Origin: Cyanobium sp. FGCU52
GTDB taxonomy: Bacteria > Cyanobacteriota > Cyanobacteriia > PCC-6307 > Cyanobiaceae
DNA length: 64,000 bases
Assembly: GCA_024958715.1 (NCBI GenBank)
Contig: JANWUS010000024.1
Location: 62,001 to 126,000, forward strand
Reading direction: 5' to 3'
Under the pieces are notes generated by a model. The model saw only the letters and a program-made list of their open reading frames with translations, was not told where the DNA came from and did no database searches. The first letter of the stretch is position 1. Each line of letters starts with the position of its first letter. Of this stretch, positions 49,422 through 51,545 are shown in pieces. A program made the position numbers and the translations under genes.

Positions 49422-49739
49422 ATGCACGCCCTCTCCCTGGCCACCTGGTGGATCCACATCACCTCGGTGCTGGAGTGGGTGCTGGCCATCGTGGCGGTGG
49501 AGGCCTTCGGGCGACGGCGCGGGGAGCCGGCCTGGCGCTGGCTGGCCCTGGCGATGCTGCCGGCCCTGGTCAGTGCGATGGCGGCCTGCACCTGGCACCT
49601 GTTCGACAACAGCGAGGCCCTGCGGGGGCTGGTGGTGCTGCAGGCCGGCTGCACCGTGGCCGGCAACCTGGCCCTGGCGGCCGCCACCTTCCACCTGCTG
49701 CGCCTGCAGCGCCGCAGCGCCGTGGAGCCCCGGGCATGA
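49422..49739 (+). CDS. DUF2499 (Ycf49-like) membrane protein
   Basis: The 105-residue protein has three hydrophobic segments and the signature start HALSLATWWIHITSVLEW followed by AACTWHLFDNSEAL, typical of the Ycf49-like family shared by cyanobacteria and plastids. Its function is unknown to me. It overlaps the next gene by 4 nt (ATGA) and heads a cluster that ends with psaK. Confidence 0.9.
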   Translation: MHALSLATWWIHITSVLEWVLAIVAVEAFGRRRGEPAWRWLALAMLPALVSAMAACTWHLFDNSEALRGLVVLQAGCTVAGNLALAAATFHLLRLQRRSAVEPRA

Positions 49740-50062
49740 ACGAGGCCCTGCTGAACCTGCTGCAACGGCTGGCAGCCTTTGATCCGGCCCCCCTGTTCGT
49801 GCTCTCGCTGATCCCCTATCTGGCCTTCCTGTGGTGGGCCCGGCAGGTGCGGGCGTTCCCACGGCTGGCCCTGCGGGGCTTTGAACTCACCCTGGTGTTC
49901 GTCGGGGCCACGATCGTGGCGGCGGTGATCGCCCAGACCCGCTACGGCCGCCAGCTGGCCGACGTGGACCCCCTCCACGGTGGCGCCGAGGCCCTGCTCA
50001 CCCTCAGCAACGTGCTGGTGATGGTGGGGTTCCTCAACCGTGAGCGCGAACCCCGTCCGTGA
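49736..50062 (+). CDS. DUF3593 membrane protein
   Basis: The 108-residue protein has three hydrophobic segments, with FDPAPLFVLSLIPYLAFLWWA and the late segment DPLHGGAEALLTLSNVLVMVGF, matching DUF3593. This family is usually next to DUF2499 in cyanobacteria, and the two may form one membrane complex; the role is unknown to me. The start ATG overlaps the DUF2499 stop, and the stop overlaps the GTG of the channel gene by 4 nt. Confidence 0.87.
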   Translation: MNEALLNLLQRLAAFDPAPLFVLSLIPYLAFLWWARQVRAFPRLALRGFELTLVFVGATIVAAVIAQTRYGRQLADVDPLHGGAEALLTLSNVLVMVGFLNREREPRP

Positions 50063-51231
50063 GCCGCCCCTGGGCGCTGATGGTGCTGATCGCCGCCGGG
50101 CTCGGTCCGGGTCTCGTTCCGCCCGGGACTGCCGCCACCGCTTCGGCGACAGGGGTGACAGCGAGCGTGCTGCGCGTGGGCGTGGTGGAGGGTTCGCCGC
50201 CCTGCAGCGTGCGCCGCGACGGCGTCTGGCAGGGGCTGGCCCCGGAGCTGTGGAACCGGGTGGCCAGTCGCGAGAACCTCGCCTTCCGCCTCAGCGGCTG
50301 GCCCTCCACCGGCGAGCTGCTGGAAGCCACCCGCACCGGCCGGATCGACGTGGCGGTGGGCTGCATCAACGTCTCGCCCGAGCGGCTGCTGCGCTACCGC
50401 TTCTCGCTGCCGTTCCAGGAGGACGGGCTGGCGGTGCTGGTGATGCGCACCCCCCTCGATCTGGGCCGCGCCTTCCTCGGCGCCCTGATCGGCCCGGGCC
50501 TGCTGCAGCTGCTGGGGGGCTTCCTGCTGGCGATCGCCCTGCTCACCGCCCTCACCTGGCGGGTCGAGCACTACGGGGAGCGTGCCGAAACCCGGCGTCT
50601 GGGACGCCTGCGCTCCTGCGGCAAGCTGTTCCAGGTGCTGGCGACCGGCCCGGGCGGCAACACGATCGTGGAGACGAACCGGGGCAACGCGATCGTGATC
50701 GCCGCCTACCTGGTGCGGATCGTGGCCGCGTCGCTGCTGGTGGGCTTCCTCACCGTGCGGGTGGTGGACGAGACCCAGGGACGGGCCCGGGGTCGGATCA
50801 GCGACCTCACCGATCTGGAGGGTCTGCGCGTGGCGGTACGGCGGGGCAGCATCAGCGAGACCCTGATCCGCGAGCTCAACCGCGAGTCCCAGCCCGACCG
50901 TGCGATCCGACCGGTGCCGATCGGGGCCATCGATGAGGCCCTGCCCCTGCTGGATCAGGACCGGGCCGATGCGGTGCTCGGCGATGAGTTGCAGCTCTCC
51001 TGGCTGGTGCGCACCGGCCGCTCCGGTGGCCGGCTGCCGCTGCTGTCGCTGCGGGGCATCCGGCCGGAATCCCAGGCCTTCGCCTTCGCCCCCACCCTGC
51101 CCGAGGACACGGCCGAGCGGATCGACCAGGCGATCAGCTCCCTGAAACGCAGCGGGGTTGTGGGGGACCTGCGGGCGGCGACGGTTCAGCCGCCGGGAAC
51201 CGGCACGACCGATGAAGGTGAACAACGGTGA
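50059..51231 (+). CDS. Ionotropic glutamate-receptor-like channel protein with atypical pore motif
   Basis: The 390-residue protein has the layout of bacterial GluR0-type receptors: signal peptide (1-26), first lobe of a periplasmic amino-acid-binding domain (about 36-130), transmembrane helix (about 141-166), pore region (about 185-205), second helix (about 210-236) and second binding lobe (about 245-370). The lobes show LRVGVVEGSPPC, GRIDVAVGCINVSPERL and LEGLRVAVRRGS. The pore segment reads VLATGPGGNT instead of the potassium-type TVGYGD, so ion selectivity is not predictable, and a non-conducting receptor is possible. The start is GTG, overlapping the preceding stop. Only 3-4 residues of linker separate it from neighbours, so it is part of the DUF2499-DUF3593-psaK cluster. 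Confidence 0.82.
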   Translation: MSRPWALMVLIAAGLGPGLVPPGTAATASATGVTASVLRVGVVEGSPPCSVRRDGVWQGLAPELWNRVASRENLAFRLSGWPSTGELLEATRTGRIDVAVGCINVSPERLLRYRFSLPFQEDGLAVLVMRTPLDLGRAFLGALIGPGLLQLLGGFLLAIALLTALTWRVEHYGERAETRRLGRLRSCGKLFQVLATGPGGNTIVETNRGNAIVIAAYLVRIVAASLLVGFLTVRVVDETQGRARGRISDLTDLEGLRVAVRRGSISETLIRELNRESQPDRAIRPVPIGAIDEALPLLDQDRADAVLGDELQLSWLVRTGRSGGRLPLLSLRGIRPESQAFAFAPTLPEDTAERIDQAISSLKRSGVVGDLRAATVQPPGTGTTDEGEQR

Positions 51232-51287: not shown

Positions 51288-51545
51288 ATGATCGCTCCCC
51301 TCCTGGCCCTGGCTCCCGCCACCGTCACCTGGTCGCCGAAGGTGGGCCTGGTGATGATCGTCTGCAACGTCATCGCCATCGCCATCGGCAAGGCCACCAT
51401 CCAGAAGCCCAACGAAGGGCTGAAGCTTCCCAGCGCCAACCTCTTCGGCGGCCTCAGCCACGGCGCCATGCTCGGCACCACCGCCCTCGGTCACATCCTC
51501 GGCATGGGCGCGATCCAGGGCCTGGCCTCCCGCGGCGTTCTCTGA
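51288..51545 (+). CDS. psaK: Photosystem I subunit PsaK
   Basis: PsaK is a small two-helix subunit at the periphery of photosystem I. The 85-residue protein reads ALAPATVTWSPKVGLVMIV in its first helix and NLFGGLSHGAMLGTTALGH near the second, matching cyanobacterial PsaK. I start at ATG 51288, which gives the family's usual length; the frame extends upstream to a GTG overlapping the channel gene, adding 20 atypical residues. It marks the organism as an oxygenic phototroph. A strong inverted repeat follows the stop. Confidence 0.96.
   Translation: MIAPLLALAPATVTWSPKVGLVMIVCNVIAIAIGKATIQKPNEGLKLPSANLFGGLSHGAMLGTTALGHILGMGAIQGLASRGVL

Follow-up and report, generated by a model that had tools for sequence, protein, structure and literature searches.

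The reading frame at positions 50059 to 51231 (+ strand) of the window, by which we mean the whole stretch of 64,000 nucleotides that was analysed, encodes a receptor protein that very probably has the architecture of the cyanobacterial glutamate receptor GluR0. At the position of the potassium filter it carries T-G-P-G, and the inner helix of its predicted pore contains an arginine, R220, that is conserved throughout its clade. In the explanation that we prefer, and that we hold with about even confidence, the protein is an amino-acid-gated channel of the ionotropic glutamate receptor (iGluR) type that is not a classical potassium channel and is weakly selective for cations; the tetramer, the gating, the ion preference and the role of R220 are what we infer in this explanation.

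The reading frame and its protein

The frame lies exactly where the first-pass annotation had placed it, and the following features, all on the + strand, are distinguished within it.

50059..51231, + strand: reading frame of the GluR-like receptor channel (390 aa, GTG start, TGA stop; 52 full-length orthologues; dN/dS 0.27)
50059..50154, + strand: likely signal peptide, residues about 1-32 (assigned by eye from a hydrophobic core followed by A-x-A-like sites)
50155..50451, + strand: predicted first ligand-binding segment S1, residues 33-131 (R109 at 50383-50385; invariant pair C49/C102)
50494..50565, + strand: predicted transmembrane helix M1, residues 146-169 (model and hydrophobicity)
50605..50646, + strand: predicted pore helix, residues 183-196 (full and pore-only models)
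50641..50661, + strand: selectivity-filter position, A195-T-G-P-G-G-N201 in place of T-V-G-Y-G-D (MAFFT, HHalign, orthologue conservation)
50677..50781, + strand: predicted inner helix M2, residues 207-241, equivalent to M3 of iGluRs (models and hydrophobicity)
50716..50718, + strand: R220, arginine conserved in the clade, within the hydrophobic mid-part of M2 (66/67 of the wider clade; 0/44 GYG or xDEM proteins)
50782..51189, + strand: predicted second ligand-binding segment S2, residues 242-377 (D309 at 50983-50985)

A long open frame also exists on the reverse strand, as is abundantly the case in this GC-rich region, but the Pfam domain and the homologues belong to the + frame. The only Pfam match above the cutoff is SBP_bac_3, which is split over residues 38-368 (E 2e-13). 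Comparison with the closest orthologue, L003, which is 86% identical and represents the same locus as L032 from Cyanobium sp. FGCU6, gave a dN/dS of 0.27 for the whole gene, indicating purifying selection. By segment the values were 0.28 for S1, 0.19 for the stretch M1-P-M2 and 0.24 for S2, so that the pore region evolves most slowly; selection therefore maintains the protein and above all its pore. The N-terminal segment, which is weakly conserved and has a low pLDDT, likely represents a signal peptide. Apparently broken copies of the gene were also observed, one with a split frame (L056/L093) and one degraded by stops (L097, G051:C6), which suggests that the gene is occasionally lost.

Predicted architecture and ligand binding

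The full chain was modelled with AlphaFold2 from an alignment of 72 family members (mean pLDDT 88.9, pTM 0.79). The model places the elements in the order lobe 1, M1 (146-169), a short helix, the pore helix (183-196), the filter loop (196-206), M2 (207-241) and lobe 2. Two hydrophobic segments were located at residues 138-170 and 209-239. The domain order of GluR0-type receptors, S1-M1-pore loop-M2-S2, which had been proposed from the sequence before, is thus reproduced, pore loop included, and we have high confidence in this architecture. An M4 helix and an amino-terminal domain, as found in eukaryotic iGluRs and plant GLRs, are absent, since the frame ends after S2 and contains no further membrane helix.

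Structural comparison of the binding domain with VIA-align returned the glutamate-binding core of GluR0 (1ii5) as the top match, tied with glutamine-binding proteins (Z 28.2, rmsd 2.1 A over 219 residues), and the core of Nostoc GluR0 (2pyy) scored similarly (Z 27.4, 1.8 A, 212 residues). With Foldseek the full chain aligned to chains of AMPA and NMDA receptors (e.g. 5vot_B, TMq 0.62). A profile of the clade likewise matched plant GLR3.4 over positions 68-365 and NMDA GluN2C over positions 78-359, each as a single stretch spanning lobe, pore and lobe. The pore was also folded separately (residues 130-248, pLDDT 80.6) from an alignment that excluded the nine GYG paralogues. Nearly all matches of this pore-only model are P-loop channels, among them Kv4.2, MlotiK1, 3beh (a bacterial cyclic-nucleotide channel), TRPV1, KCNQ and Shaker, with Z values of about 10 over about 110 residues, which is moderate for a helical domain, and weak Foldseek E-values (best 0.42). 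The strength of this model-based test thus lies in the near-uniform identity of the matches and not in single scores. Searched against the PDB by sequence, the pore profile alone found no channel, only matches at chance level.

The residues that hold an alpha-amino acid are retained in the binding domain. Alignment to 2pyy pairs R109 and D309 with the residues of binding proteins and glutamate receptors that contact the alpha-carboxyl group (Arg) and the alpha-amino group (Asp), respectively; both have been described for glutamate binding (PMC2950845). R109 is invariant in the 52 orthologues and D309 is present in 50 of them, the other two having Glu. From this conservation the ligand is likely an alpha-amino acid, in line with the earlier suggestion that an amino acid is sensed. 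C49 and C102 are also invariant and may form a disulphide.

The filter and the inner-helix arginine

Glutamate receptors are thought to descend from a binding protein fused to an inverted potassium channel. In the window protein the potassium filter TVGYG is not found; the aligned position reads ATGPGGN, with the individual residues A195-T196-G197-P198-G199-G200-N201-T202. The MAFFT alignment pairs A-T-G-P-G-G with T-V-G-Y-G-D of the GYG paralogues, and HHalign against the GYG pore arrived at the same register, with a weak probability of 7.8%. Among the 52 full-length orthologues, G197 and G199 are present in all, T196 in 51, and P198, N201 and Q192 in 48 each. G-P-G is accordingly read by 48 of them, and the other four (L029, L030, L054, L079), which group together in the tree with support, have TG[ES]G and acidic residues. 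Because both glycines are invariant, the altered filter is neither a product of chance nor a sequencing artefact, and the non-canonical filter that the first-pass annotation had noticed at the TVGYGD position turns out to be a property of the whole clade. The Pfam families Ion_trans_2 and Lig_chan each match nine of the 72 family members, which equals the number of GYG paralogues, and do not match the window protein. In genome G000 the DNA pattern for TVGYGD, a narrow one, was not found; this genome contains four Ion_trans_2 loci, two of them with TIGFGE or TTGFGD filters, and none of the four was recovered by the GluR search.

A second peculiarity of the pore, R220, had been overlooked before, as had the other pore variants that occur in the same bacterial family. 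R220 is invariant in the orthologues. Counted over the wider filter-altered clade, with the MGTG, TIGPSP and filterless paralogues included, 66 of 67 distinct proteins have an arginine at this position; in the lone exception, L068, it is shifted by one column. None of the 44 other cyanobacterial GluR-like proteins (35 GYG, 9 xDEM) has it, S, G, T or A being found instead, and it is also missing from the alphaproteobacterial relatives with TSGR or TNGK filters. By hand alignment the R220 column falls within a residue or so of the glycine-hinge region of potassium channels. The conservation of R220 probably reflects one evolutionary event that is seen many times and not many independent ones.

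Distribution and related proteins

All 52 full-length orthologues that were found are picocyanobacterial. A member of the clade (E below 1e-50) is carried by 50 of 251 genomes drawn from the family of the window, and when 386 genomes of the phylum were sampled, all of the strongest matches (over 400 bits) came from this family; the named carriers include records of Cyanobium, Synechococcus, Vulcanococcus and Aphanothece. In the tree, a branch of moderate support (88/61) separates the 52 orthologues from the other proteins; the MGTG and TIGPSP paralogues adjoin them, and the GYG group stands apart with a support of 100/100. The deeper joins of the tree are uncertain owing to long branches. In some related genomes a GYG paralogue coexists with a member of the filter-altered clade.

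Several further pore variants were observed. Proteins from genomes of the window's family (L061-L068, L070) have an altered filter that in most reads MG[TS]G[IT]YKM, and in L059/L060 the filter is TIGPSPLDKT; all of these proteins have the M2 arginine, which in L068 is displaced by one column. L095, L096, L171 and L172 have no recognisable filter (LQKTLLLSTDHTK) and keep the M2 arginine; as judged from their sequences, they are possible non-conducting receptors. In other cyanobacterial families (L116, L120, L121, L123-L126, L160, L163) the pore reads T-QADEMP or close to it and is two residues shorter than the GYG filters. One 47% identical fragment (L057) lies on a contig labelled as an Acidobacteria MAG, which is probably a misbinned cyanobacterial contig. 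No relative was detected in viral contigs, and the plasmid matches were limited to binding proteins and to distant proteobacterial relatives, whose identity stays below 30% in matches that extend across the channel.

Comparison with known receptors and channels

The best-studied relative is GluR0 (Synechocystis slr1257), for which the topology and potassium transport have been shown by experiment and which has a role in volume regulation (PMC13099474). By analogy, the window protein may share this role. With GluR0 and the GluR0-type 'Group 1' it has in common the order S1-M1-P-M2-S2, the lack of M4, the fold of the binding domain, the ligand Arg and Asp, and the signal peptide. It differs from GluR0 in that its clade has ATGPG[GST]N for TVGYGD and an arginine in the middle of M2; moreover, the stretch from M1 to the pore is about 4-5 residues shorter, and the binding cores are only about 22-27% identical. 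Plant GLRs and the animal AMPA and NMDA receptors share the arrangement of ligand-binding and pore segments, as seen by profile and by Foldseek, whereas the window protein does without their amino-terminal domain and M4 and has a different filter.

A non-potassium filter as such is not new in bacterial glutamate receptors, as Ger et al. 2010 already described receptors with P regions of unrecognised selectivity as 'Group 2' (PMC2950845). The window protein shares with this group the iGluR architecture and a non-potassium filter, which is a weak test as the group is loosely defined. TSGR or TNGK filters are found in relatives from Paracoccus and Agrobacterium, and T-QADEMP in relatives from other families of cyanobacteria; at the M2 position all of them have G, S or A instead of R, and going by organism and pore, and not by accession, we infer that these are the Group 2 of Ger et al. 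The paralogues of the same bacterial family with MG[TS]GxYKM and TIGPSP filters (L059-L068, L070) form the adjoining group in the tree, carry the M2 arginine and mostly have GxG, but differ in the other filter letters and are only about 23-30% identical. A resemblance that amounts to analogy only exists to the potassium uptake channels KtrB and TrkH, which also have a filter reduced from TVGYG and an M2 arginine, the latter being located at the gate and conserved in KtrB (PMC5449183). The domain layout is different, and the arginine of KtrB occurs in one of four repeats, whereas in the window protein it would presumably be present in all four subunits.

In the open-access literature we came across no account of this clade, of the GPG filter, of the M2 arginine or of glutamate receptors of Cyanobium. 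A bolder reading, which we hold to be less likely than not, is that a potassium pore has been rebuilt here with a new type of filter (T-G-P-G, with T-G-E-G offshoots) and a ring of inner-helix arginines into an undescribed principle of selectivity or gating, for instance an arginine-gated non-selective or an anion-permeable one. As GYG, GPG, GEG/GSG, GTG and filterless versions occur within one bacterial family, the route by which glutamate receptors lose the potassium filter could be addressed there, and exchanging filters and arginines among these proteins could reveal to which of the changes the selectivity responds. The clade might further indicate the free amino acid that these abundant picocyanobacteria sense.

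Proposed mode of action and alternatives

After removal of the signal peptide, S1 and S2 would build a clamshell on the periplasmic side of the membrane and close around an alpha-amino acid. This closure would pull on M1 and M2 of a presumed homotetramer and thereby open the pore, the loop of which would enter the membrane from the cytoplasmic side. In the clade, the potassium filter was replaced by A-T-G-P-G-x-N, probably once. As the filter Thr and Tyr of potassium channels are lost and the G-x-G backbone is kept, the passage of cations with weak or no potassium selectivity is most probable. R220 would most likely act at or near the gate or the base of the filter, like its conserved counterpart in M2 of KtrB. 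A ring of four M2 arginines could, on the other hand, oppose the flow of cations, and reviews caution against predicting the selectivity from the sequence of a filter, which they regard as not feasible (PMC3483616, PMC11479355).

Unlikely, and yet the alternative that fares best, is that the protein does not conduct at all and serves as a membrane-anchored amino-acid sensor derived from a channel ancestor, with the pore plugged by the arginine. The conserved M2 arginine together with the lost potassium filter fits such a receptor, as does the existence of distant paralogues without the filter glycines (L095, L096, L171, L172). An unused pore would, however, not be expected to have the lowest dN/dS of the protein and an invariant G-x-G, and the protein has no separate signalling domain. 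As far as substitution rates can tell, the slowly evolving pore argues against simple decay.

Slightly less probable still is a channel that remains potassium-selective, in which the T-G-P-G backbone would work as a potassium filter and do the same job as in GluR0. Both filter glycines are kept in all 52 orthologues and GluR0 itself is a potassium channel (PMC13099474), but Thr, Tyr and Asp of TVGYGD are all replaced. Moreover, some related genomes that carry the clade have kept a GYG paralogue besides, which makes redundancy of the two forms improbable.

We regard an anion channel, in which four cavity-facing arginines would draw anions, as improbable. The conservation of the mid-M2 arginine across the wider clade speaks for it, and for plant GLR3.4 a mechanism of anionic permeation has been put forward as plausible owing to an arginine in its filter (PMC11479355); yet the arginine of the window protein could face the pore or the protein interior, and KtrB conducts potassium despite a comparable arginine (PMC5449183).

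That the protein is not a channel but an ABC-transporter binding protein fused to a permease, as the sole Pfam match to SBP_bac_3 might suggest, is very improbable: no permease domain (BPD_transp_1 type) was found in the window protein with E values of up to 1 or among the 25 families most often matched in the 72 members, and the only two membrane helices and the re-entrant helix lie inside the binding domain, with a pore region that resembles P-loop channels. Neither of the outcomes that the first-pass annotation had named as refuting its channel reading, a topology lacking the pore loop or an ABC-permease character, was thus observed.

Gene neighbourhood

The gene is embedded between the following neighbours, which had been named correctly in the first-pass annotation.

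49422..49739, + strand: DUF2499 gene, a neighbour and not part of the channel (its stop overlaps the start of the DUF3593 gene, ATGA)
49736..50062, + strand: DUF3593 gene, a neighbour (its stop overlaps the start of the GluR-like gene, GTGA)
51288..51545, + strand: psaK, a neighbour (85 aa, ATG start at 51288), found here whether or not the GluR-like gene is there as well

This linkage had been taken as a sign of a conserved role in a phototroph, an interpretation that did not hold, as the trio is intact without the gene in 25/25 genomes and more than half of the orthologues are located elsewhere. Only 21 of the 52 are found at the psaK site; for the remaining 31 this context is not seen, a few of them being on short loci. 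In all 25 genomes without a GluR-like gene at the site, DUF2499, DUF3593 and psaK are contiguous, and the gene is therefore an optional insert in a gene order that has been inherited. Mapped on the tree, location at psaK is scattered over the clade and requires four changes, as if the gene had left its old site several times; the relocated copies have an unchanged pore sequence, and no recurring neighbours were found around them. The position at psaK is thus no evidence of a role in photosynthesis, and we consider it just as improbable as the permease fusion that the protein works with photosystem I, a reading that the operon-like GTGA overlap with DUF3593 and the 21 orthologues before psaK might invite, but that is opposed by the uninterrupted trio and by the scattered placement of copies that keep their pore.

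No function for DUF2499 or DUF3593 was found in the open-access literature. The succession DUF2499-DUF3593-psaK, followed by an FAD-dependent oxidoreductase or dxs, recurs in conserved order throughout the family, also in picocyanobacteria with small genomes. The mechanically called psaK frame starts at a GTG at 51228 and overlaps the stop of the GluR-like gene, while the match to the family sets in close to the ATG at 51288.
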